Program-made: the position numbers and the translations under genes
Assembly (NCBI RefSeq): GCF_900129825.1
Contig: NZ_FQWZ01000003.1
Span: forward strand, 364,353 to 428,352
Origin: Hydrocarboniphaga daqingensis
GTDB lineage: Bacteria; Pseudomonadota; Gammaproteobacteria; Nevskiales; Nevskiaceae
Direction of reading: 5' to 3'
Length of the DNA: 64,000 bases
In this document: positions 48,527 to 62,351 of the stretch, in pieces
How positions within the stretch are numbered: position 1 is the stretch's first letter
Layout of the letters: each line of letters starts with the position of its first letter
Notes under the pieces: generated by a model
Databases searched by the model: none
Told to the model about the DNA's origin: nothing
What the model saw: the letters and a program-made list of their open reading frames with translations, nothing else

Positions 48527-49393
48527 CTAAACGTCGTAGCCCATCGCCGCGATATCCGACGCGAACGACAGAAACAGCGCGCGGTCTTGGTCGTCCGCCT
48601 CGGTCTGCCATCGCCCGATCGACTGCTCTGCGGATTCGGTGGTGCTGTGATGCTCGGTCAGTGGATCGCGCTCGAGAGCCTGTCTGAGCATCTGCCGCAG
48701 ATACGGTAAGTCGTTACGGACGCCGAGCCATTCGAACAAGCGCTGAAAGTAGGCCGCACGCCCTGCCGTGATCGATTCGTAGTTGCACCGGTAGATGCGC
48801 CCAGGAAATGCTTGGCGCAATTGCGTGAACCGGCGCCACGAATACACGATGCTGCGAAACATGGCCTCGTTGCCGTTCGTCTCGCCAAAGCCGGAGGAGT
48901 ACGGCGCCTTGCGGTTGAAAGCCTTCATGGAAAAGTAAACGTCGCGCGGGTCGCGGAACAGAAACAGAGCGCGGCACTGCGGGTCGGTTTCCAGCAGGTG
49001 CGTGCTGAGTTTGATCCCGATGGCCTTCTCGGCGATCCATCTCGGCGTGGTCTTGTCCTGTGCGTCGGCGAGGTGCTTGTAAAAAGCCAGGGCGGCGCCG
49101 GCTGAAGGTGCGTGCCGGGCACCCTGTTCCCGAATCCATTCAATTGCCTCTTGGTCTTCACCCTGGCACGGGGCGTAGGCCACCGGACCATGCGGTTCGG
49201 GCGCCTGGCTGACGCTGACGCTGCCGTTGAGTGCGCCTGCTTCGGCGTATTGGCGAAATCGTGTTTCGTATGGGAAGCGATCACGCACCATGACATCCTG
49301 GTGCTGCGACAGAATCCGCATCGTCAGCGTGCTGCCGGCGCGCCCGGTCGAGCAAAGCAACAGAAACGATGGTGGTTGCGGCAACTCAGACAT
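48527..49393 (-). CDS. sulfotransferase (PAPS-dependent)
   Basis: 288 residues. 5'-phosphosulfate loop LLLCSTGRAGSTLTMRIL at the N-terminus, and 3'-phosphate-binding region ALFLFRDPRDVYFSMKAF near residue 147. It probably transfers sulfate from PAPS to a sugar hydroxyl of the glycan made here. One of four sulfotransferase-like genes in the locus. PAPS synthesis genes (cysDNC) are not in the window. Confidence 0.85.
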   Translation of the reverse strand: MSELPQPPSFLLLCSTGRAGSTLTMRILSQHQDVMVRDRFPYETRFRQYAEAGALNGSVSVSQAPEPHGPVAYAPCQGEDQEAIEWIREQGARHAPSAGAALAFYKHLADAQDKTTPRWIAEKAIGIKLSTHLLETDPQCRALFLFRDPRDVYFSMKAFNRKAPYSSGFGETNGNEAMFRSIVYSWRRFTQLRQAFPGRIYRCNYESITAGRAAYFQRLFEWLGVRNDLPYLRQMLRQALERDPLTEHHSTTESAEQSIGRWQTEADDQDRALFLSFASDIAAMGYDV

Positions 49394-49456: not shown

Positions 49457-50431
49457 CTAGGCCTTGCCGACGTAGGTTCGGGGGCTGTTGTTGACGTCCT
49501 TAACCTCGCCCTTGATGCGCACGCGGACCACGTCACCTTCCTTGAGTCGACGGTCGTCGGGCAACACCAGCCGAAAGCCGCATTCGCCGGTGGGGTGAGC
49601 TTTCTGTGCCAAGTCTTTGCGAAACTGGTTTGCGAGCACCGTTCCCGCGTGTTGGTCATTGATCCAGACGTCGATCGACACGGGTTCCGTGGTGCCTCGC
49701 ATCATGGCCCATCCTGATACGAAGCTGGCTTCTGCGCGGTCTAGGAAGCCGTATCCTCCCCAGGTGCGCGACGTCATCAGATAATCGGCCGGTGTTTCGC
49801 GGACGAAGCGGCGTGCGGCTCGAATGTGTTTCTGGTCGGAAACACCCGCATAGGCGGCCAACTGCCCCACGAAGCGTCCCGGATTCAGCATCGCCTTCTC
49901 ATAGGAGATCAACGCCATTCGCTCGTTGCTCTTGGAGATGATGGCCATCAATTGACGGTACTGCTCTACCGTGTGAGCCATGTTGGCCAGAAGATCGCTG
50001 CGCACCGAGATTCGGTTGCGGTTCGCGATGGCGAAGACGTCCCGGAAAATCACGAGAAACTCGGGATTGCGGAACTGACGCTTGACGCGCTCGATGTGCT
50101 CATAGGCCGATGGGCGCTTCCAGCCCCAAACCTTCCTTTCAGCGTTCTTCTGTGCGATTAGAGATTTGAGGCGGTTCGTGTCCTTGCCTTCTACCGCCTC
50201 GCTCAGCGCGACGTCCTCGTAGACGGTATTGGGCTTACCGCCCATGCCCATATCGATGCCGAGGTGATGGAGAGCGCCCGATACCATCGTCGTGCCGCTG
50301 CGCGCCACGCCGAGCACGATCAGCGTCCGTTCGGCGGGCGGCGGGCCGGGCCAGTTGATGCGAAGAAAGCCCGTGTTATCGAGCTTGGAGAGGTCGAGCT
50401 CGGGTGGAGCTTGGGTGGTTTGGGCGGTCAA
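49457..50431 (-). CDS. sulfotransferase with C-terminal GWA-type module
   Basis: 324 residues. PAPS loop LIVLGVARSGTTMVSGAL at 38-55, a KVWGWKRPSAYEHI region near 100, and FLVIFRDVFAIANRNR near 125-140 as the second phosphate site. From about residue 230 a separate beta-rich module begins: SGWAMMRGTTEPVSIDVW, later KAHPTGECGFRLVLP. The same module forms the N-terminus of the ABC permease at 56642 in this operon. Similar modules occur in other glycan enzymes and may bind substrate or anchor the protein; function unproven. Eight bases separate it from the GT2 gene. Confidence 0.85.
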   Translation of the reverse strand: MTAQTTQAPPELDLSKLDNTGFLRINWPGPPPAERTLIVLGVARSGTTMVSGALHHLGIDMGMGGKPNTVYEDVALSEAVEGKDTNRLKSLIAQKNAERKVWGWKRPSAYEHIERVKRQFRNPEFLVIFRDVFAIANRNRISVRSDLLANMAHTVEQYRQLMAIISKSNERMALISYEKAMLNPGRFVGQLAAYAGVSDQKHIRAARRFVRETPADYLMTSRTWGGYGFLDRAEASFVSGWAMMRGTTEPVSIDVWINDQHAGTVLANQFRKDLAQKAHPTGECGFRLVLPDDRRLKEGDVVRVRIKGEVKDVNNSPRTYVGKA

Positions 50432-50438
50432 GTTGGGA

Positions 50439-52811
50439 TCAGCGTGCGTCGAGTTGCAGGTAATGGGGCGCTTCCAAAGACAGTGACAAGTCTTCGTGCT
50501 CCAGCGTCAGGCACGGGTTGTAGCTCCGGTCATGCAGCAGCAGATCACGCCAACGGGTTTTCATGTACTGAACTTCGGCGGCGAAGCGCAGCCGCTTTTC
50601 GGGAGTGTCCTCCTGCCCTCTGGACAGAGACTCAAAATGCAGGAGTTCGGCGTAAGGGGTCCACACGGTCCGTAGCTTGCGTTCTGCCAACCGCAAGCAA
50701 AAGTCCACGTCATTGAACGCCACCGCCAGATTGACTTCGTCCAGGCCCCCCAACGCTAGATAGTCGGCCTTCTTCACTAGCAAACAGGCGCCCGTTACGG
50801 CGGAGACGGTCTGTGGCAGGACCAGCCGGCCGAAGTAACCCAAATGGTGGCGCGGATAGTACTTGTGGCTGTGGCCGGCGACGCCGCCGACCCCAAGGAT
50901 GACGCCTGCATGTTGAATGCGTCCATCGGGGTACATCAGCTTGGCACCGACAGCGCCGACACCGGGCTGGTAAAGCCGCGGAACCATCTCGTTGAGCCAG
51001 TCACCTGTCAGAACTTCGACGTCATCATTGAGCATCAATAGGACGTCGCCTATCGCTTCCTTTGCTCCGAGATTGTTGACCGCGGAAAAATTGAACGGAG
51101 CGTCGTAGCTAATCACGCGAACACGACGATCCAGCTGATAGCGCGACAACAACGACAGCGTGCGGGGGTCCGCGCACTGGTTATCGATGATCAGAATCTC
51201 GTAAGCCGGGTACAGCGTGCGCCTCAGGATGCTGTCGATGCAGCGCTCAAGCGCATCACCCCCGTCGCGCGTCGGAATCATGATGGACACGAGGGGGGCG
51301 GGCGACGGCATTGGGTACCGAACCCGATAACTGGTCGGAAACGGCCCGTCAGAAACGTGGGCACCGATCGGCGCCATGTGCTCACTCAGCGCAGCGATCC
51401 CGCTCGGATGTGCGCCGGCTTTGGCTCCGAGGACTTGGGCGGTCGAGCCGTGTGACTTTCGCCAGTGATAGAGCACACCGGGTACATGAACAATCTGATC
51501 CGGTCTTATGGCATCAACGCAGCGCAGTACGAGGTCGTAGTCTTGACTGCCATCGAATCCGGCTCTGAAGCCGCCGACCGCTTCGACCACGTCGCGTCGC
51601 ACCACCAGCATATGACCGAAGTAGTTGATTGAGTGCAGTAAGTCCGGATTCCACGCCGGCTTGAAATGCGGCTCGCAGCGCTGACCGTTCTCGTCGATCT
51701 TATCCTCGTCGGAGTAGAGCAACGCGGCTTCAGGAAACTGTCGAAGCGCACGGGCCATACGGTCCAGTGCCCAGCGCGCAAGGGTGTCGTCTTGGTCGAG
51801 GAACGCGATGTAGTCCCCGGTCGCCGATGTCAGCGCGGCGGATGAAGCACGCGCAATACCACCGTTGACGACATGGCGCTGAACTTTGAGCCGGGGCTCC
51901 CGCTCCGCCAGCTCGGAAATCTGGGTCCAGACATCGGGTTCGGTTGATGCGTCATCGCAGATACACAGTTCCCAGTGGGGATAGGTCTGTGCCATCACCG
52001 ACGCGATGGCCTCGATCAGCTGCGCAAGCTCTGGGTTATAGACCGGCATTACGATCGAGAATGTAGGACCTTCCTCTTTGGCCGCCTTCATCGCCATCCG
52101 ATCGCAATCGTCTTCGGTGGGCTCGACAGAATTCACCCAATCGCGGTAGTCAACGATGCGCTGATAGGGCTGCAGCAGGGGGCGATTGGCCACACCACGA
52201 AGCTGCCAGTAAAGAGGTGAAAGACGGTGACGTGTGCGGCGGTAGATGCCACGTAGCGTCAGGATGAATTGGTCCGCGAGGCCTAGAGAGGTAATCGAAA
52301 GGCAGCCCAAGCTAAACGGGCCAGCGTGCTCGGTCGGATCTAAACGCAGCCGGCGCAAGCCCAGCGGCATGAAGCAGACGCATTCGATTTCGCCGCGGTG
52401 TCCTGCGATACCCAACAACACCTGAGTGCGCTCGCTGAACCCCCCGCGGCTGTCTCGATACAGCTTCACGCAGCCGCTGCCTCGTAGCGCATCGACCGAC
52501 ACCCGAACGCGACACCAGCCCCGTGGGAGGCGCCACCATGGCAGCGCGACGGCAAAACATGGATCGGCATCGATGGCGACCCAGGCCGACCCGACTGGTT
52601 CCAGTGGCAGCCCTTCTTCGTACTCGGGATGTTCTTCCAGACCGCGTAACGGGCGCAGGGGCAAGGCGCCCGATCGGGCAAACGGCTTGAACAACAGAAT
52701 AATCAGCCCAACCCACCACCGGACAATAAAACCAAGCGCCCCGTGATCGAGGCGGGCGAGGCTATGCCGAAGTACGGAGCGTAAGGAGGGCGCGATCCCC
52801 GATAGCGGCAT
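50439..52811 (-). CDS. large two-domain GT2 glycosyltransferase
   Basis: 790 residues. The N-terminal ~220 residues contain one membrane-like segment (ALGFIVRWWVGLIILLF) and a beta-rich region. Two GT-A domains follow. The first has FSIVMPVYNPELAQLIEAI, YIAFLDQDDTLARWAL and YSDEDKID. The second has VSIMIPTRDGGDALERCI, LMLNDDVEVL and a GACLLVKKADY acceptor region ending FNDVDFCLRL. Architecture resembles O-antigen enzymes of the WsaE/RfbC type that build alternating linkages, so it may make most of the backbone. Sugars unknown. Confidence 0.9.
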   Translation of the reverse strand: MPLSGIAPSLRSVLRHSLARLDHGALGFIVRWWVGLIILLFKPFARSGALPLRPLRGLEEHPEYEEGLPLEPVGSAWVAIDADPCFAVALPWWRLPRGWCRVRVSVDALRGSGCVKLYRDSRGGFSERTQVLLGIAGHRGEIECVCFMPLGLRRLRLDPTEHAGPFSLGCLSITSLGLADQFILTLRGIYRRTRHRLSPLYWQLRGVANRPLLQPYQRIVDYRDWVNSVEPTEDDCDRMAMKAAKEEGPTFSIVMPVYNPELAQLIEAIASVMAQTYPHWELCICDDASTEPDVWTQISELAEREPRLKVQRHVVNGGIARASSAALTSATGDYIAFLDQDDTLARWALDRMARALRQFPEAALLYSDEDKIDENGQRCEPHFKPAWNPDLLHSINYFGHMLVVRRDVVEAVGGFRAGFDGSQDYDLVLRCVDAIRPDQIVHVPGVLYHWRKSHGSTAQVLGAKAGAHPSGIAALSEHMAPIGAHVSDGPFPTSYRVRYPMPSPAPLVSIMIPTRDGGDALERCIDSILRRTLYPAYEILIIDNQCADPRTLSLLSRYQLDRRVRVISYDAPFNFSAVNNLGAKEAIGDVLLMLNDDVEVLTGDWLNEMVPRLYQPGVGAVGAKLMYPDGRIQHAGVILGVGGVAGHSHKYYPRHHLGYFGRLVLPQTVSAVTGACLLVKKADYLALGGLDEVNLAVAFNDVDFCLRLAERKLRTVWTPYAELLHFESLSRGQEDTPEKRLRFAAEVQYMKTRWRDLLLHDRSYNPCLTLEHEDLSLSLEAPHYLQLDAR

Positions 52812-53116: not shown

Positions 53117-54838
53117 TTACAGCCTAGCTACGACACCGGCCGCAATCGCGATTTGGTAGATGACTTGGATGATGTCCTTCGAGAACTGGAACTTCTTGCT
53201 GTCAACGGTCGGCAGCACCAGTACTTCGTCTCCCGGATTGACCAGAGTGCCGGAGCCCTGCGTGATCTCACCTGATGGACTGATCACGAGGATTCTATCG
53301 CTCGACGACCTCTGGAGCACACCGCCGGCTTGCTCAACGTAATCACCCGCATCCTGCCGCTTGCGCCAGATGAACGAGTTGGGCAAATACACCTCGCCGT
53401 GGACCTGCACCACGTTGCTGACGCGTGGAATGCGCAGCACGTCGCCGTCTTCGAGCGCAATCGTGCTGGGGTCGACGCCCGCATACAACACAACTTGGCC
53501 CTTGGGCTGGATCAACTTCGCGCGCTCGACGAACTGCAGCACGAGCGCCGCCTCCTTGGACCGGAGTTCTGCTTCCTCCGGCGTCCAGGATCTGGCGTTG
53601 AGCACGGATTGCTCCAGCTTCTGCAGTGTCTCATCGAGAACCTGCTTCTGACGCTCGGCAACCGTCTTTCTAAACAGTTGTAGGCCGGCGCTGTTGGACT
53701 GGGCGGAATACTGGATCTGCTTCAGCAGGTCGGCCAGCGTGGCCTCGTAGGGCAAAACGTAAAAACCAGCGCTCTCATGTTCACCTTCTACCGCGACGGC
53801 AATTTGCTTTACCAGCCGGTCGGCCGTCACTTCGATCTCGTCGCCGGTCTTGGCCTCGGTATCGAGAAATGGATCGTTGACCGGGACGTAGAACGCGTCG
53901 CGCTTGGGGCCGACGTTGCGAGCAAGGCGTACGTGAGTGGCGCGCCCGCTGATGCCGGCAATCGATAGCAAGTCGCGGATCACGGTCCCGGGTTTGAACT
54001 CGAACTGAGCCGTGTTGGTGACGAGGCCCGATATCTTCACGCTCGGCCCAGACGGCCCGACGAACACGCTGTCGCCATCCTTGAGCTGGGGGGCCGGCAG
54101 GAAGCCTTCGGTCATGAACCGATACAGATCGACTTGGCTGACGACCTGACCGCCGCGCAGCAGGCGGACGTCCAGGTAACTGCCCGTCTTTGGATTGATG
54201 CCGCCGGCGCGATCGAGAAAAGTCAGGATCGAATCCGATGCAAAGCCTGGGTAGAGGCCAGGGCGTTGCACGAAGCCCGACACGAATACCTTGACCGGTA
54301 CGGCGGCTGCCAGCGTCGCGTAAACGCCGACGTCCGCCTTGAATACCGAGCGAATGCGGTTTTCCACCGTCTCGTTGAGCCGTTCGTTGGGGACGTTGGC
54401 AACTTGAACCGGGCCTACTTTGGGCACAAATACATTGCCTTGGGCGTCGACCGTCAATTCCAGTTGGTTTTCGACGGCACCCCACATCCGCAGCGCAATC
54501 GTATCGCCGACGCTGATGATGTAGTTGGGATTGAAGCCTTTGAACGACTCCCGCGCAAAATTGCCTTGGAACAAGACCTGGCCAAAGACCGGATTCGTAC
54601 TGAGCGTGGTCTCGACGATCTGAGAGGCGGTCGTCACCCCCGTCGTCGTTGCGAAGTCATCGAAGTCAGACGGCGTTGGCAGATTGACGGTGCCGGCCCG
54701 AGGAGCGACACCGGCCGGCGCTGGCGCTGCACTGCTACTTGAGGCAGGCGCAAGGCGTGCAGGGGCAGTCTGAGCCCATGCCGGGTTGCCCAACATGGCC
54801 GCAAGGCTCGCGATGAAAACCAAATGGCGGGTACGCAT
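53117..54838 (-). CDS. kpsD: polysaccharide export outer-membrane protein (KpsD/Wza type, SLBB domains)
   Basis: 573 residues with signal peptide (FIASLAAMLGNPAWAQ), no lipobox. Poly_export domain from about 100 (YIISVGDTIALRMWG), followed by several SLBB-like repeats, and VVQVHGEVYLPNSFIW and a C-terminal segment DIIQVIYQIAIAAGVV. Length equals KpsD rather than lipoprotein Wza. It forms the periplasmic/outer-membrane channel for ABC-exported capsule and follows kpsE closely. Confidence 0.9.
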   Translation of the reverse strand: MRTRHLVFIASLAAMLGNPAWAQTAPARLAPASSSSAAPAPAGVAPRAGTVNLPTPSDFDDFATTTGVTTASQIVETTLSTNPVFGQVLFQGNFARESFKGFNPNYIISVGDTIALRMWGAVENQLELTVDAQGNVFVPKVGPVQVANVPNERLNETVENRIRSVFKADVGVYATLAAAVPVKVFVSGFVQRPGLYPGFASDSILTFLDRAGGINPKTGSYLDVRLLRGGQVVSQVDLYRFMTEGFLPAPQLKDGDSVFVGPSGPSVKISGLVTNTAQFEFKPGTVIRDLLSIAGISGRATHVRLARNVGPKRDAFYVPVNDPFLDTEAKTGDEIEVTADRLVKQIAVAVEGEHESAGFYVLPYEATLADLLKQIQYSAQSNSAGLQLFRKTVAERQKQVLDETLQKLEQSVLNARSWTPEEAELRSKEAALVLQFVERAKLIQPKGQVVLYAGVDPSTIALEDGDVLRIPRVSNVVQVHGEVYLPNSFIWRKRQDAGDYVEQAGGVLQRSSSDRILVISPSGEITQGSGTLVNPGDEVLVLPTVDSKKFQFSKDIIQVIYQIAIAAGVVARL

Positions 54839-54843
54839 GCTTC

Positions 54844-55980
54844 TTATTCCTGATGGTCGCGAATCGTGGCAATGATCAGGCCGCCGATCGCATAGAGCAG
54901 ATTCAACACAATGAAAATCGTCGCCACGTTGTACAGCGATTCCGGCTCCGTCGACTTGTCCGGCATCGTCGGCGGAGAGATCAGCACCAGGAACTTGACC
55001 TTGCGGGTCGCATCAATGCGTGCTGTTTCCAGTGTACGCACACCCGTCTGGTAGATATCGGCGGCGATCTGCTGATTCAGTTTGACTTCCTGAAAGTCCA
55101 GCATCTGTTGATTGATCTTCTTGTCCTCGAGTCCACCGACCTGCTTGTCGCGCTCCTGGGCAATCTGCCGTTCCAGGGCTGCGATTTTGGTCTTGGTGGC
55201 AACAACCTCGGCCGCTGACTCGCTCAGGTAGGTGGTCAGTGCCTTCAGCGTGGTTCGCTCGCGCGCCAGGTCGCCTTGAAGCGAACCGATAATGCGGGTC
55301 AGCGTTTCGTTCTCGACCTCCGCACTGAACATGTTCCGTTTGTCTTGAATGTCAATGACATCCGCGGATGCCTTCTTAAGCCGCTCGTAGACCGATTCCA
55401 ATTCGCGCTGAGCGAAGTCGATTTGCTCGCGGGCCAAGGCTTGGCTCACTTCGTTTACAAACTGTTCCGAGCGTTTGACGATTGCGGACGCGACTTTCTG
55501 GGCGTACTCACGAGAACTCCCTTGCACCGCCAACTCGATGGTCATCGACTCTTCATTGATTTCCGTCGTAACGCGGTCGAGATAGAAGGCAAGGAAGTCT
55601 TCCTTCGATGCCGTCGGCGACATCCTGGAAAACCAGTCGGATGCATCGCTTGAATAATGCGCGCGTAATTGAACCTCACTTTCGAGGTAATCCAACATCG
55701 CCGGCGACTCGATAAAGCGTTGGATCAGCAGGGCGTCCTGCAGGGCATTGCCACCACCGAGTCCTAGCACATTGAGTGCGATCGACGGAGCCGTCGAGGC
55801 CGATCCATTCTGAACCAGTACCGAAGCCTCACTCACGTACCGATCGGTGCTGATGAACCCGTAATAAATCGCGAACAAAAAGCAGGGCAACAGGACGAGT
55901 GTCGAATATGCCCGGTGTCCGCGAATATAATCAACGATGCTTTTCAGCAGTCGCATTGGTGCTTCAATAAGGCCCTTCAC
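54844..55980 (-). CDS. kpsE: capsule export inner-membrane protein (KpsE/BexC type)
   Basis: 378 residues. N-terminal helix STLVLLPCFLFAIYYGF, a periplasmic Wzz-type domain with a long coiled coil (about 170-300), and C-terminal helix NVATIFIVLNLLYAIGGLIIATI; the PCP-3 layout without a kinase. Links KpsMT with KpsD. Overlaps kpsT by four bases. Confidence 0.92.
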   Translation of the reverse strand: MKGLIEAPMRLLKSIVDYIRGHRAYSTLVLLPCFLFAIYYGFISTDRYVSEASVLVQNGSASTAPSIALNVLGLGGGNALQDALLIQRFIESPAMLDYLESEVQLRAHYSSDASDWFSRMSPTASKEDFLAFYLDRVTTEINEESMTIELAVQGSSREYAQKVASAIVKRSEQFVNEVSQALAREQIDFAQRELESVYERLKKASADVIDIQDKRNMFSAEVENETLTRIIGSLQGDLARERTTLKALTTYLSESAAEVVATKTKIAALERQIAQERDKQVGGLEDKKINQQMLDFQEVKLNQQIAADIYQTGVRTLETARIDATRKVKFLVLISPPTMPDKSTEPESLYNVATIFIVLNLLYAIGGLIIATIRDHQE

Positions 55981-56642
55981 GCGGTTTCCTTCTTGTATTC
56001 AGTAATTGCCTGATTGATGTCATTGAAGTACTTCACAGTACCGTTGTGAACATACAGCCCGACATCACACCACTGGCGAAGCGTTTCAAGACTGTGGCTG
56101 ATCAGGATAATGCTAGACCGACCGCGTTTGCTTTGAAAAATAGCATCAGATCGGAGTCTGAAAGACTCATCACCGACACCGGTGAGCTCGTCGATCAGGT
56201 AATACTCGTAGTCGTAGGCCATGCTGATCGCAAAGGCCAAGCGCGCACGCATGCCGGTTGAATAGGATTGCGTGGGCTGGTCGAAGAAGGGGCCGATATC
56301 AGCCAGTGCGCGGATGTACTCGACTCGCGCTGCCTGCGTCTTGTAGTCATCGCCGCGGATGCGGCAGATAAACCGAGCTGAGTCGCGCCCCGACAACTGC
56401 GGTAAAAAGCCGGATTGCAAGCCGATCGGCGGCGATATCAAGCCTTCGCAGGTGATGCGACCCTGGTCAGGCTGATCCATTTTTGAAAGCAAGCGGACCA
56501 GCGTGCTCTTGCCGGCACCATTTCGACCCACGATTCCGATGTTGGTCTTGCCCGGCAGCGTCAGCCATAGATCACGGTAGACGTGATGCCGCTTGCCGTT
56601 CGGCAGTTTGTACGACTTGTATACGCCCTCGACTTTGATCAT
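55977..56642 (-). CDS. kpsT: capsule ABC transporter ATPase (KpsT/CtrD type)
   Basis: 221 residues from ATG 56642. Walker A GRNGAGKSTL near 43, signature YSTGMRARLAFAI and Walker B YYLIDELTGVGD. The short length, with no C-terminal carbohydrate-binding domain, separates it from O-antigen Wzt proteins and places it with group 2/3 capsule exporters. The TAATG junction with the permease means translational coupling. Confidence 0.95.
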   Translation of the reverse strand: MIKVEGVYKSYKLPNGKRHHVYRDLWLTLPGKTNIGIVGRNGAGKSTLVRLLSKMDQPDQGRITCEGLISPPIGLQSGFLPQLSGRDSARFICRIRGDDYKTQAARVEYIRALADIGPFFDQPTQSYSTGMRARLAFAISMAYDYEYYLIDELTGVGDESFRLRSDAIFQSKRGRSSIILISHSLETLRQWCDVGLYVHNGTVKYFNDINQAITEYKKETA

Positions 56643-57877
56643 TAGTTGGTCAAATGAGAAAGGTGTTTGCGGTAGGCGACAAAGCCGATCCACAGCGAAA
56701 ACAGTGTCCACAATCCGATGTAAACCCAACTCCCCGGTGAATCATATGCGGACAGCATTTCTCCGCGAGCAAGATCGACACCGTGCAGAATCGGATTCCA
56801 GATGATGTAGGGCGCGATCAGATCCGGAATCTGTTCCATTGTAAAAAAGGCACCCGACAGAAAAAGCAATGGCCTGTTCATCATGTCGACAAATCGGCGG
56901 ATTTCTTGGTTCTTGGTGATGTAGACGTCAGCCCACAAACCAAGTCCGAGCGCCAGAGAAAAGAGTAGACCGATGGCGGCGAAGAATCCGAGCAGATTAT
57001 CCGCCTCGACAGGACGTCCAATCCACAGTAATACGAATACGATGACAAACTTGAGTGCCAGCATCATCATCAACTCAATGACTGCGGCAACCAAAACTGC
57101 ATCGATAGGACGAACCTGACGATAGCTAAAGATGCCCTTTGCTGCCGAAATCGATCCCATGCAGCTATTGAATACGCGGATGAAGATAAAGAACGAGATC
57201 ACGCCGATGGAGTGATAATAAAACCCATCTACGCCGCCTTCCTCTCCTCCGAACTTGCCGCCCCCTCGGCCGGCCAGCATGCGTGAGCCACGCAGCAAGG
57301 CCATATAAAACAGGGGCTCGGCGATCGCCAGAAAGTACCCGAAGCGCTGGCTGCCATAACGCAGCTTCATTTGCCGCAGGAACAACGCCGTGAATGAGTC
57401 CGCGAAAATCCGCAAGCTGTTGCGTTGCGGTGGAGGCGGCAGCGGCGGCAACTCCGGCAAAGTCAGTACAGCGGAGCTGATCTTGGGCTGGCCTGTCTCG
57501 GTGGCCGCTGCCGTTGCAGCGGGAGGCGAAGGAGTGGGCGACTGCGGCGGTGGAGCCGGTGTCTGATGCTCCGCGCCTTTGCACAAGGCCGGGCTACCCG
57601 AAAGATCGCGCTCTGCCCCAACGGGCCGAACCGACACAAGATCAGAAGCCTGGAGTTGCTCGCCCTCGGGGATGGCTAAAAAGAAGCCACACAGCCCTGT
57701 CGGATGGAGTCCCTTCGCTTTAACGTCGGCCCGTAGACGATCCGCCAGAATCGTCTTGTAGGGCACACCGTTGATCTTGACGTCGAGACTGAGCGGCGCG
57801 CCGTCGCCCTCGGCGTCCATCGCCCAGCCGCGGATTTCGCGGGGGCTGACACGATCCAGGTGTCCAATTACGCGCAT
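56642..57877 (-). CDS. kpsM: capsule ABC transporter permease (KpsM type) with extra N-terminal module
   Basis: 411 residues against about 260 for usual KpsM. Residues 1-100 form an extra module: RVSPREIRGWAMDAEGDG, then GLHPTGLCGFFLAIPEG. It matches the C-terminus of the sulfotransferase at 49457. A Pro/Ala-rich linker follows (about 103-150, TPAPPPQSPTPSPPAA). The ABC-2 permease domain starts at about 152 with six helices, RQMKLRYGSQRFGYFLAIAEP and NPILHGVDLARG. It also has a Gly-rich loop (GRGGGKFGGEEGG) in the first periplasmic part. First gene of the export operon. Confidence 0.92.
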   Translation of the reverse strand: MRVIGHLDRVSPREIRGWAMDAEGDGAPLSLDVKINGVPYKTILADRLRADVKAKGLHPTGLCGFFLAIPEGEQLQASDLVSVRPVGAERDLSGSPALCKGAEHQTPAPPPQSPTPSPPAATAAATETGQPKISSAVLTLPELPPLPPPPQRNSLRIFADSFTALFLRQMKLRYGSQRFGYFLAIAEPLFYMALLRGSRMLAGRGGGKFGGEEGGVDGFYYHSIGVISFFIFIRVFNSCMGSISAAKGIFSYRQVRPIDAVLVAAVIELMMMLALKFVIVFVLLWIGRPVEADNLLGFFAAIGLLFSLALGLGLWADVYITKNQEIRRFVDMMNRPLLFLSGAFFTMEQIPDLIAPYIIWNPILHGVDLARGEMLSAYDSPGSWVYIGLWTLFSLWIGFVAYRKHLSHLTN

Positions 57878-58500: not shown

Positions 58501-58892
58501 GGGCGTTAGCTCTACGTGATGTGGGATGTGCAGCAAAGTCGATGCCGCTGGGGCCGATAACGGGCAATATATTGCCTGCGCCGCTTTCGTTGCGTCAACG
58601 GCGTTCATTTCATGCGCCGCCCAGCCGATACCGGTCGAGCGTCCAGTTGGCTCTGCTCAAACAAATCAATAAAGTTACAATTTGGTCAAGCACTTGACGA
58701 TGCCGGGCGAGATGTTCGGAGGTCTGTGGTGTCCAGCGAACCGCGGTGCGTGCGCCTCGCCACTGGCACAGCAGCGTGTCGTCAAAGCAAACCGCGCCAC
58801 CGATGGGAGGCATTTTTGAGTTGCAGAGATTTCACTTGGGCCACTCGTCAACCCGTGACCCCGAGTCTGGTATCCGGGGCCGAGGTTCGGTG
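58501..58892. other. divergent intergenic region of the two capsule operons
   Basis: 392 bases between the minus-strand gene at 58500 and the plus-strand operon at 58893. Around 58655-58700 it is locally AT-rich and has TTGACC on minus (58684-58689) and TTGACG on plus, but neither has a convincing -10 at 16-18 bases. A 67-codon minus-strand frame here has no Shine-Dalgarno and is not called. Confidence 0.4.
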
Positions 58893-59816
58893 ATGGCTGA
58901 CCATTCCGTGGTGCTTCACCTCGGGGCGCATAAGACCGCCACGACCTACCTCCAGCGGCTGTTTTTCAAAAATCGGCAGCTGCTCGAATCAGATCTCGGT
59001 TTTGGCTACGTGCCCATGTTCCGCCTTCGAGCTGACGTCACCACGCGTCTGGATCGCGCCGATTCGCAGCCGGAGCGGTCGCAGATGGTCGAGGCGCTGC
59101 GCGGCTATGGCGTCGGCCTCGCATCCGACGGCCGCAGAGTTCTGCTTTCCGACGAAAACCTTATTGGCGACTGCGCCGAGATCATGCGCTCCGGGAAGTT
59201 GTATCCGCGCGTGCTGACTCGGCTACGGCGCCTACGTGAGTTGCTGGGCCAGGAGCCGCGCGAGATCTGGTTTGCCGTCCGGGCCTATGACCACTTTTTG
59301 GCCTCTGCTTATGTCGAAGCAAACCGACATGCCAAAGAGTTTTTGTCATGGGATGCAACGGCGGCCCGAGTCGATCTGTCGCGTCGACGTTGGCCTCAAG
59401 TTCTGGCCGATGTCCGAACCGTGTTTCCCGGCGCCCGTGTCAGGGTTTGGGCGTTTGAACAGTTCGTCGCTGACGACCGGTCGGTAATACGCCATCTGAT
59501 CGGCGAGGGGGCCGCCCGGCTTGTATACATCGAAGAGGCCGTTCGTGCCTCATCGTCGGCTGACGCCATGCGAGTCGCCGAACTGTTGAGTCAAACGCTC
59601 GGACCTGCGGCAGCGGCGTCGGTGTTTGCCGAGCTAGATGCGCTGTTGCCCAAATCGGCAACGCGGTTGGGCTTCAGTCCCTGGTCGGATGACGACAAAG
59701 CCGCGTTTCGCCGATTGTACGAGGCCGATCTTCAGCAGCTTGGACAAGCTGGCGGCCTAGAGTTGATCTCGGTTGCCGACCAGGTTGCTGCACCTCGCCC
59801 GACCGCCGCGATATGA
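58893..59816 (+). CDS. sulfotransferase-like protein (HxGxHKTATT type)
   Basis: 307 residues from ATG 58893 with GAGG seven bases upstream. N-terminal VVLHLGAHKTATTYLQRLFF is the phosphosulfate-binding loop of a subgroup common in polysaccharide loci. LLSDENLIGDCAEIM and EIWFAVRAYDHFLASAYVE, the latter with the second phosphate site, follow. First gene of the plus-strand operon; overlaps the next by four bases. Confidence 0.78.
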   Translation: MADHSVVLHLGAHKTATTYLQRLFFKNRQLLESDLGFGYVPMFRLRADVTTRLDRADSQPERSQMVEALRGYGVGLASDGRRVLLSDENLIGDCAEIMRSGKLYPRVLTRLRRLRELLGQEPREIWFAVRAYDHFLASAYVEANRHAKEFLSWDATAARVDLSRRRWPQVLADVRTVFPGARVRVWAFEQFVADDRSVIRHLIGEGAARLVYIEEAVRASSSADAMRVAELLSQTLGPAAAASVFAELDALLPKSATRLGFSPWSDDDKAAFRRLYEADLQQLGQAGGLELISVADQVAAPRPTAAI

Positions 59817-60703
59817 GTACTGGTTATCTATTGCTGGTTCACGACCAGCCTGCACAGGTCCGTCGGCTGGTTTCGGCGCTGCAGGGCCCGGGTGTTAGCT
59901 TCATCGTTCATGTCGATGCCAAGGCCGACAGGGCTTCGTTTGTAGTGGCATTGCGTGGGCTTTCGGGTGTGCACGTGCTGCCGCCGTCGGCGAGTGTCGC
60001 GGTCAACTGGGGCGGATATAGCCAGACGCAGGCCATGCTCAATCTTTGCGCAGCAGGGCTTGAGCAATGTACCGACGCTCATCGCTTTACGTTGCTAAGT
60101 GGCGCCTGCTATCCGGTCGCCAGCAACGCGCGGCTGCAGGCGCTGGCGTCATCTCCTGCCCTGATGATCGACCTGAAGCTGACGCCGCCCGAACTGCCCC
60201 GCTACGAGCGGGTTCGGCACTATCACCTGTCGGACCATCCGTTGACCAACCGGCGCGGCAGCACCGACCGGAGTCCGCGCGAGCGCAGTTACATTCGTTA
60301 TATCAAGGACTTCGTGTCATCACTGCCGCCACGGCCACCGTTCCCGGTGCCGCTTTACTACGGGCCTACGTGGTGGTCATTGACTCGCCCGGCACTGGAG
60401 TACGTGATGCGACACTGCCGAGAGCACCCCGAACTGCTAACGGAGTTCCGTTACTCCGCCCACGCTGACGAGCATCTGGTCCATACCATTCTCGGCAATT
60501 CGCATTGGGCCGAGGCGAGTATCGGCTGTGGCCACTACTATGTCTGGGAGGAGCACCCCAAGCGACACTGCCGAACGCTCGACATCAGCGATCTCGATCG
60601 CATCCCGCCGACGGCGTTGTTCGTAAGAAAGGTCGATCCTGCAGGTTCGGCTGAGCTGCTCGAGCGGCTCGACCAAGCGCGCGCCCCAACAGAGGCGCCT
60701 TGA
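59813..60703 (+). CDS. GT14-family (core-2/I-branching type) glycosyltransferase, copy 1
   Basis: 296 residues. GYLLLVHDQPAQVRRLVSAL, VHVDAKAD, VAVNWGGYSQTQAML, LLSGACYPVAS and YGPTWWSLTRPALEYVM are the hallmarks of the Branch/GT14 family (animal core-2 beta-1,6-GlcNAc transferases and xylosyltransferases). No membrane anchor. In bacteria it probably adds branches to the capsule or O-chain. Coupled to the sulfotransferase upstream. Confidence 0.87.
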   Translation: MSTGYLLLVHDQPAQVRRLVSALQGPGVSFIVHVDAKADRASFVVALRGLSGVHVLPPSASVAVNWGGYSQTQAMLNLCAAGLEQCTDAHRFTLLSGACYPVASNARLQALASSPALMIDLKLTPPELPRYERVRHYHLSDHPLTNRRGSTDRSPRERSYIRYIKDFVSSLPPRPPFPVPLYYGPTWWSLTRPALEYVMRHCREHPELLTEFRYSAHADEHLVHTILGNSHWAEASIGCGHYYVWEEHPKRHCRTLDISDLDRIPPTALFVRKVDPAGSAELLERLDQARAPTEAP

Positions 60704-60715
60704 TAGCGCATCCAA

Positions 60716-61642
60716 ATGAAACTTATCTATCTCCTGCTCGCGCACGATCAGCCGAAACAATTGCGACGTCTGGTTTCTGCGCTCAATTGCGACGATGTGG
60801 CGTTCTGCATTCATATCGACCAGAAGGCGAGCCTCGCTCCATTCATGATCGAGCTTGCCGGGATGCCGAACGTTCAGTTCGTCGATGACCGGGTATCGGT
60901 CAACTGGGGTGGGTTCAGTCAGACCGAAGCCATCATGCGATTAATGCGCACGGCGCTGGCCTGTTGGCCTGATTCGAAGCGTATGTACCTGATCAGCGGC
61001 TCGTGCTATCCCCTGGCGTCCAATACGCAGTTGCTAGCGACCTGCGACACCGACGATCAGCTGATCAAGGCCAAGTTTTTCAAGCCGGGTACGCCGCGCG
61101 CTGAGCGTGCCAGTCGCTACAACATCTCCGACCACCCGTACCTCAACAAGCGGTGGGTGAACATGGCGCGTGAGCGCACCGACCGAAACGTGCTGCTGGA
61201 ACTACAGCAATACATCGGCGAGTTCCTCGAAAAGCTCCCGCCCAAGCCCGACTTGGGTATGCCGTTTCACGGTGGTGCGACATGGTGGGGTCTGACCGCG
61301 GATGCCGTTCGCTATGTGCTCGATTATTGCGATCAGCACCCTGCATTTGTCGACTACTTCAGGTTTTCGCTGCACGCCGACGAATCCATGGTCCATACCT
61401 TAATCGCCAACTCCTCATTTCCAATCAAGAAGGGTATGAAGGCGTTCCACTACGTTGACTGGTCACCGGCCAGCATCGCCAGGAAAAAGTATCTGGATGT
61501 CGACTCGCTCGACAAAGTGGACTGGGTGTCGCAGCTGTTTATCCGAAAAGTGCACCCTGATTTGTCGTCGGCGTTGATGGACCGTATCGACGAGCGCCGT
61601 GCTGCTCCGGATCAGGTCGTCTGGGGTACCTATGGCGATTGA
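60716..61642 (+). CDS. GT14-family (core-2/I-branching type) glycosyltransferase, copy 2
   Basis: 308 residues, a clear paralogue of the previous gene: LIYLLLAHDQPKQLRRLVSA, IHIDQKAS, VSVNWGGFSQTEAIM, LISGSCYPLAS, GGATWWGLTADAVRYVL and SLHADESMVHTLI. The two copies diverge enough to suggest different acceptors. It overlaps the following gene by 11 bases. Confidence 0.87.
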   Translation: MKLIYLLLAHDQPKQLRRLVSALNCDDVAFCIHIDQKASLAPFMIELAGMPNVQFVDDRVSVNWGGFSQTEAIMRLMRTALACWPDSKRMYLISGSCYPLASNTQLLATCDTDDQLIKAKFFKPGTPRAERASRYNISDHPYLNKRWVNMARERTDRNVLLELQQYIGEFLEKLPPKPDLGMPFHGGATWWGLTADAVRYVLDYCDQHPAFVDYFRFSLHADESMVHTLIANSSFPIKKGMKAFHYVDWSPASIARKKYLDVDSLDKVDWVSQLFIRKVHPDLSSALMDRIDERRAAPDQVVWGTYGD

Positions 61643-62351
61643 GCGTCGGTTCGTCATCTTTACGGCGGCGCGAACCGGATCCAATGCCCTGGTTTCATCT
61701 CTGGCCGCCAGCAGCGAGATCCACTGTGATTACGAGCTGTTTCACCCGGAGCAGATTTACTGCACAGCCGGTCTGACGCAGAAGACCATCCAGCAACGCA
61801 ATCGTGACCCTAAGGCGTTTCTCGACGACCTAATTCTAAATGCGTCGAAACACAAGCCGTCGGCTCGCGTTTACGGCTTCAAGATTTTCTTCACGCACAA
61901 CCGCAAAGCGCGGGAGTACCTGCTCAACGATCGTTCCTGGGCCAAGGTCATCCTCCAACGCGAGAATGTGTTGGATCAGTTCATATCTCACAAAATCGCC
62001 GCGGGCTCGGAGATGTGGGACACGACCAATGTCGCCGTCAAAAGCGTGTCGCGGATCCGATTTGTGCCGGCACAGTTTGATCTGTTCGTCGAGCGGCTCG
62101 AGCGTCAAGGCAGCGAAACCCGCGCTTTTCTGCAGCAGACGCAGCAACCGTTTTTCGAGATTGGATATTCCGACGTAGAGGCGAATCGGTACGAACCGCT
62201 GTGTCATTACTTGCAGGTTCAGCCGACTGACAATATGGCGCCGCGGATCGGCAAGCAAAACAAGCGTCAAACGGCTCTCAAGTTGGTCAATCCCGAGGTC
62301 GCCCGGGCGCATCTTGCCACTCGAGGCCTCGGCCACCTCTGGGTGGATTGA
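61632..62351 (+). CDS. sulfotransferase-like protein (NodH/Stf0-like)
   Basis: 239 residues from ATG 61632. RRFVIFTAARTGSNALVSSL is the NodH/Stf0-type PAPS loop, FHPEQIYC follows in the conserved place, and KVILQRENVLDQFISHKIA is the second phosphate site. NodH-type enzymes sulfate glycolipids or oligosaccharides. Fourth sulfotransferase-like gene of the locus. Confidence 0.8.
   Translation: MAIERRFVIFTAARTGSNALVSSLAASSEIHCDYELFHPEQIYCTAGLTQKTIQQRNRDPKAFLDDLILNASKHKPSARVYGFKIFFTHNRKAREYLLNDRSWAKVILQRENVLDQFISHKIAAGSEMWDTTNVAVKSVSRIRFVPAQFDLFVERLERQGSETRAFLQQTQQPFFEIGYSDVEANRYEPLCHYLQVQPTDNMAPRIGKQNKRQTALKLVNPEVARAHLATRGLGHLWVD

Follow-up and report, generated by a model that had tools for sequence, protein, structure and literature searches.

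The KpsM-type capsule permease encoded in the window, a 64,000-nucleotide stretch of Hydrocarboniphaga daqingensis DNA, carries at its N-terminus an uncatalogued module that is homologous to the C-terminus of a nearby sulfotransferase. The module's entry into KpsM by way of a sulfotransferase-module-KpsM fusion is fairly well supported, and a related species carries such a fusion. The permease (56642-57877) and the sulfotransferase (49457-50431) are both encoded on the minus strand. BLASTP aligned residues 5-96 of KpsM with residues 228-317 of the sulfotransferase at 42% identity (39 of 92 positions identical, 54 positive, 2 gap positions), with 73 bits and an E-value of 8e-19 for this single comparison. 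The local BLOSUM62 score of the module pair was 174, whereas the scores of 5000 shuffles averaged 25 and never exceeded 54. The E-value and the shuffle scores rule out chance similarity, and homology of the two copies is thus shown at the sequence level. A previous sequence-only reading had matched the two protein ends at these coordinates, and it was right. The motifs that it named (GWAM, HPTG.CGF, D.V.VR and an SP ahead of a G-K/G-A end) are all present, and the Pro-rich linker that it described is indeed followed by a normal permease, with the PF01061 match starting at residue 162 (43.3 bits; cut-off 26.9).

Three codons before the KpsM ATG there is a TAG in the same frame. Because this stop bounds the annotated start, the module is not a product of upstream mis-annotation, and a wrong start codon or strand artefact is excluded for that start, although the ORF contains internal start codons. 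The features of the locus are collected in Table 1.

Table 1. Features of the export operon in the window and of the related fusion frame in Hydrocarboniphaga sp. RYN_594.
Feature	Position	Strand	Basis or remark
KpsM FN3/Ig-like accessory module, residues 1-100	57578..57877	-	alignment, predicted fold; cytosolic by position
KpsM Pro-rich linker, residues 101-151 (29% Pro over residues 98-152)	57425..57577	-	joins module to permease
KpsM-type ABC-2 permease, interface helix and transmembrane domain	56642..57424	-	PF01061
KpsT ATPase	55977..56642	-	PF00005
KpsE-like co-polymerase	54844..55980	-	TIGR01010, 284 bits, below cut-off of 437.5
KpsD-like outer-membrane export protein	53117..54838	-	Poly_export and SLBB
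Bimodular GT2 glycosyltransferase	50439..52811	-	domain match and synteny
Sulfotransferase domain, PAPS motif GVARSGTT intact	49754..50431	-	PF13469, 36.6 bits, cut-off 27
Sulfotransferase C-terminal module copy, residues 227-324	49457..49753	-	alignment to KpsM module
Second operon sulfotransferase, without module	48527..49393	-	PF13469, 51 bits
RYN_594 fusion frame	L014 10546-12465 = L065 9233-11152	minus (L014)	single open frame

The permease shares its operon with the ATPase, KpsE-like and KpsD-like genes, and the KpsT ATG overlaps the KpsM stop (TGATG). Because it scores 87.6 bits against the NCBIfam equivalog NF050053 (cut-off 300), the window protein is, by sequence, a divergent KpsM-like permease. 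KpsT has no Wzt-type C-terminal binding domain; it is at most 250 residues long and its match fills the ATPase domain. The module-bearing sulfotransferase passes the Sulfotransfer_3 cut-off with an intact P-loop and is predicted to be PAPS-dependent. PAPS can be made in this organism, since the genome encodes two APS kinases. Neither KpsC nor KpsS, the Kdo-linker enzymes of group 2/3 systems, was found near the locus, and the sole PF05159 match of the genome is weak and lies about 19 kb from KpsM. The KpsMTED-type operon (53117-57877) is instead accompanied by a WecA-like gene and rhamnose genes, which suggests that a lipid carrier different from the Kdo-linked one is used. Beside the operon lies a divergent cluster (58746-62351) with two Core-2/I-branching-type glycosyltransferases and two more putative sulfotransferases.

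The module is confidently predicted to be a FN3/Ig-like β-sandwich of about 95 residues. The AlphaFold2 model of the window copy (eight rows) has a mean pLDDT of 93.8 and a pTM of 0.84 and consists of six strands and a single short helix. Among PDB structures it most resembles sandwiches of the FN3, Ig-like and CBM56 types, at Z values that reach 8.4 but single out no family; CBM56, at Z 6.9, is level with FN3 and Ig domains. Z values of 6 to 8 can come from a common strand arrangement alone, and FN3-like folds serve protein contacts too. The predicted fold fits binding without demonstrating it. Sequence and profile searches gave no Pfam, NCBIfam, PHROG or PDB sequence family that covers the module. 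Scans of 14 module copies at loose cut-offs found no relevant Pfam or NCBIfam family, carbohydrate-binding families included, and literature searches turned up no description of such a module. By sequence, it is an uncatalogued domain to which neither Pfam nor NCBIfam devotes a family.

The module is not private to the operon. Five more copies are present on other proteins of the same genome, including a GT2/GT4 protein, a TPR protein (two in tandem) and a WbsX/GT4 protein, and 30 of 398 sampled Pseudomonadota genomes (about 8%) have it at an E-value of 1e-5 or better. The bearers in the phylum include sulfotransferases, glycosyltransferases, WbsX, a TPR protein, a Hint/AIDA protein and an APH-like kinase; Sulfotransfer_2 proteins among them carry the module at the C-terminus. 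This range of bearers marks the module as a mobile general accessory of surface-glycan enzymes. Its presence on many bacterial sulfotransferases and glycosyltransferases also means that knowledge of its ligand would aid the annotation of surface-glycan loci.

The fusion is found in Hydrocarboniphaga sp. RYN_594 and is known from this one MAG. A single open frame of 640 residues encodes a degenerate sulfotransferase domain, one module, a linker and KpsM, and KpsT follows directly. The likely start is codon 63 of the frame. The gene just upstream encodes a sulfotransferase-like product with a P-loop visible by eye and no Pfam match, and its stop abuts the ATG of the fusion. The N-terminal domain of the fusion is collinear with the window's sulfotransferase, and hhalign against the profile of that sulfotransferase family gave a probability of 95.3 and an E-value of 2.4e-8; in the controls, 60 shuffles reached at most 3.1 and unrelated proteins, other sulfotransferases included, at most 1.3. 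Two-sequence BLAST of this domain against the window's sulfotransferase returned no match, so that the kinship is visible to profiles only. The predicted structure of the domain is poor (pLDDT 66.6) and its PDB matches are uninformative; the absence of a sulfotransferase among the PDB matches of such a model is not evidence against kinship. Because the PAPS motifs are gone (GVARSGTT has become GRHEHAVA), the sulfotransferase domain of the fusion is very probably inactive.

We propose that a KpsM gene fused with a neighbouring sulfotransferase-module gene, which would have brought the module to KpsM, and that the sulfotransferase part may then have decayed, as in RYN_594, or disappeared, as in the window and in Panacagrimonas. 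The module tree, with 95 columns and low resolution, contains a supported set (95/80) made up of the KpsM-borne copies from the window and RYN_594, two sulfotransferase modules and one outside row. A single group that unites eight modules from KpsM and sulfotransferases was not rejected (p-AU 0.27), nor was a single origin of module-bearing KpsM in the permease tree (p-AU 0.29). It is also conceivable that KpsM and the sulfotransferases acquired a freely moving glycan-enzyme module separately, and the sharing would then be uninformative on sulfation. The wide spread of the module over many proteins agrees with such independent gains, as does the position of the two Panacagrimonas KpsM modules (G031, G032), which fall apart from the sulfotransferase modules in a tree whose 95 columns resolve little. 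However, the window and RYN_594 copies on KpsM have both the supported set and the HP[TS]G.CGF signature in common with sulfotransferase modules, and a sulfotransferase-module-KpsM fusion exists. We therefore regard separate acquisition as improbable and retain origin by fusion.

The module is present on KpsM in 4 of the 12 Nevskiales genomes that have this permease, namely the window's genome, RYN_594 (G003) and two Panacagrimonas MAGs, and it precedes the interface helix each time. A survey of 369 genomes of the class gave no further KpsM with the module. In six of the eight module-less KpsM loci, a sulfotransferase gene lies no more than about 17 kb away; of the other two, one (G004) has no sulfotransferase and one (G067) lies on a contig that is too short. 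Four genomes (G040, G044, G065, G066) carry the module on a sulfotransferase and not on KpsM, and the window carries it on both. Overall, 9 of the 12 Nevskiales genomes with this KpsM have the module vs. 2 of 73 others, a comparison not corrected for shared ancestry. Because eight of the twelve permeases lack the module, six of them near a sulfotransferase gene, export in general can proceed without it; the idea that it is required for sulfated export is rejected, since most sulfotransferase-containing KpsM loci do without it.

This patchy distribution, the existence of export loci without the module and the degenerate sulfotransferase of RYN_594 would all suit a vestige, that is, a remnant of the sulfotransferase-KpsM fusion that itself contributes nothing to export. 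But the KpsM modules of different lineages are 23-38% identical, close to the 30-40% of the permease itself, and three of the four copies keep HP[TS]G.CGF, whereas alignment of the linker is poor and uneven. Such conservation makes a functionless remnant unlikely in our judgement.

We infer instead that the module acts as a glycan-binding adaptor on tailoring enzymes and on KpsM. Our preferred explanation, offered tentatively and with slightly less than even confidence, is a cytosolic, probably glycan-binding adaptor that reached KpsM through the sulfotransferase fusion and would play a role comparable to that of the Wzt carbohydrate-binding domain, which reads chemically capped O antigen (PMC9445017). 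A solved KpsMT complex has a cytosolic interface helix at the start of KpsM and no gate helix in KpsT (PMC11041684). Because KpsM starts with this helix there, a module placed before it should be cytosolic, and the cytosol is the compartment of PAPS and of the sulfotransferase. On the cytosolic face, the module would bind the glycan as it is made, perhaps through its sulfated or terminal units; the sulfotransferase-borne copy may hold the enzyme on the chain, and the KpsM-borne copy may present or check the chain for loading. The absence of any sequence match between the module and carbohydrate-binding families counts against this glycan-binding reading.

The neighbourhood of the sulfotransferase-module genes agrees with this reading and also bears on a different proposal. 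These genes adjoin a bimodular GT2 gene in eight genomes (G000, G044, G040, G065, G446, G825, G778 and G745), and in a ninth (G571) the two are about 0.9 kb apart. Apart from G000, the GT2 neighbours in these genomes are 38-57% identical to the window's GT2. The same bimodular GT2 precedes the module-bearing KpsM in one Panacagrimonas MAG (G032) and, at a distance of about 1 kb, in RYN_594. The adjacency holds in distant genomes and across two sulfotransferase families, which implies that module-bearing sulfotransferases are tied to one polymer-making enzyme. The module may thus be a docking device that binds GT2, another module copy or the sulfotransferase, so that synthesis, sulfation and export proceed in one complex while the glycan itself is left untouched. 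The conserved GT2 adjacency and the real fusion of sulfotransferase, module and KpsM both agree with docking, and a degenerate sulfotransferase domain could survive as a mere structural part. WbsX, the TPR protein and the Hint/AIDA protein, however, have no evident partner in common, and we consider docking rather unlikely. The sequence-only reading had suggested a common binding function, either glycan recognition or docking of the sulfotransferase on the exporter. An accessory binding role is still the best reading, but sharing the module does not by itself imply docking, because it is widespread on surface-glycan enzymes.

The suggested link between sulfation and export fared similarly. The RYN_594 fusion supports physical linkage independently, and together with the shared module it hints, at the level of sequence, at such a link; module-less KpsM in sulfotransferase-containing loci speaks against a general one. 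It is possible, although we hold it to be doubtful, that sulfation and export are physically coupled, with a sulfotransferase-derived reader in the permease that gates or recruits the sulfated chain as the permease counterpart of Wzt end-recognition. In one species, this reader would very probably include a catalytically dead sulfotransferase domain.

An accessory domain on an ABC glycan exporter is already known from Wzt; what is new here is an uncatalogued module, and its place on the permease. Like Wzm/Wzt (PMC9445017), the window system is an ABC polysaccharide exporter with an extra cytosolic β domain and a chain modified in the cytosol before export (both predicted here). Unlike Wzt's, the extra domain is N-terminal on the permease, unrelated in sequence and common to a tailoring enzyme, and KpsT has no Wzt domain. 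The group 2/3 KpsMT-KpsE-KpsD exporters (PMC11041684) likewise have permease, ATPase, KpsE-like and KpsD-like genes in a single operon, but in the published KpsM the interface helix comes first, with no module before it, and the window locus has no nearby KpsC/KpsS. The sulfated capsule locus of Vibrio sp. KMM 8419 (PMC11641403), in the accessible part of its description, resembles the window in KpsMTED-type export, rhamnose genes, a WecA-like initiator and sulfotransferases, whereas neither a module nor a sulfotransferase-permease fusion is described in that part. FN3-like and CBM56-like β-sandwich modules are alike in predicted fold (Z 6-8), but a sequence relation to the module was not found. 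The shared module and the natural sulfotransferase-module-permease fusion make it directly testable how correct chain tailoring is sensed in KpsMT systems, which lack the Wzt reader domain.

Three module-bearing frames outside the window also deserve mention. On L007 (13441-15801, plus strand), a TPR protein has two tandem copies at its N-terminus. On L054 (1543-3405, minus strand), one frame combines the module, a Sulfotransfer_2-like stretch recognised by eye and a Sulfotransfer_3 domain, and thus appears to place two sulfotransferases in one polypeptide. On L167 (14298-15512, plus strand), the module forms a fusion with an APH-like kinase, possibly a chain-capping kinase, beside a sulfotransferase-module gene and the bimodular GT2.
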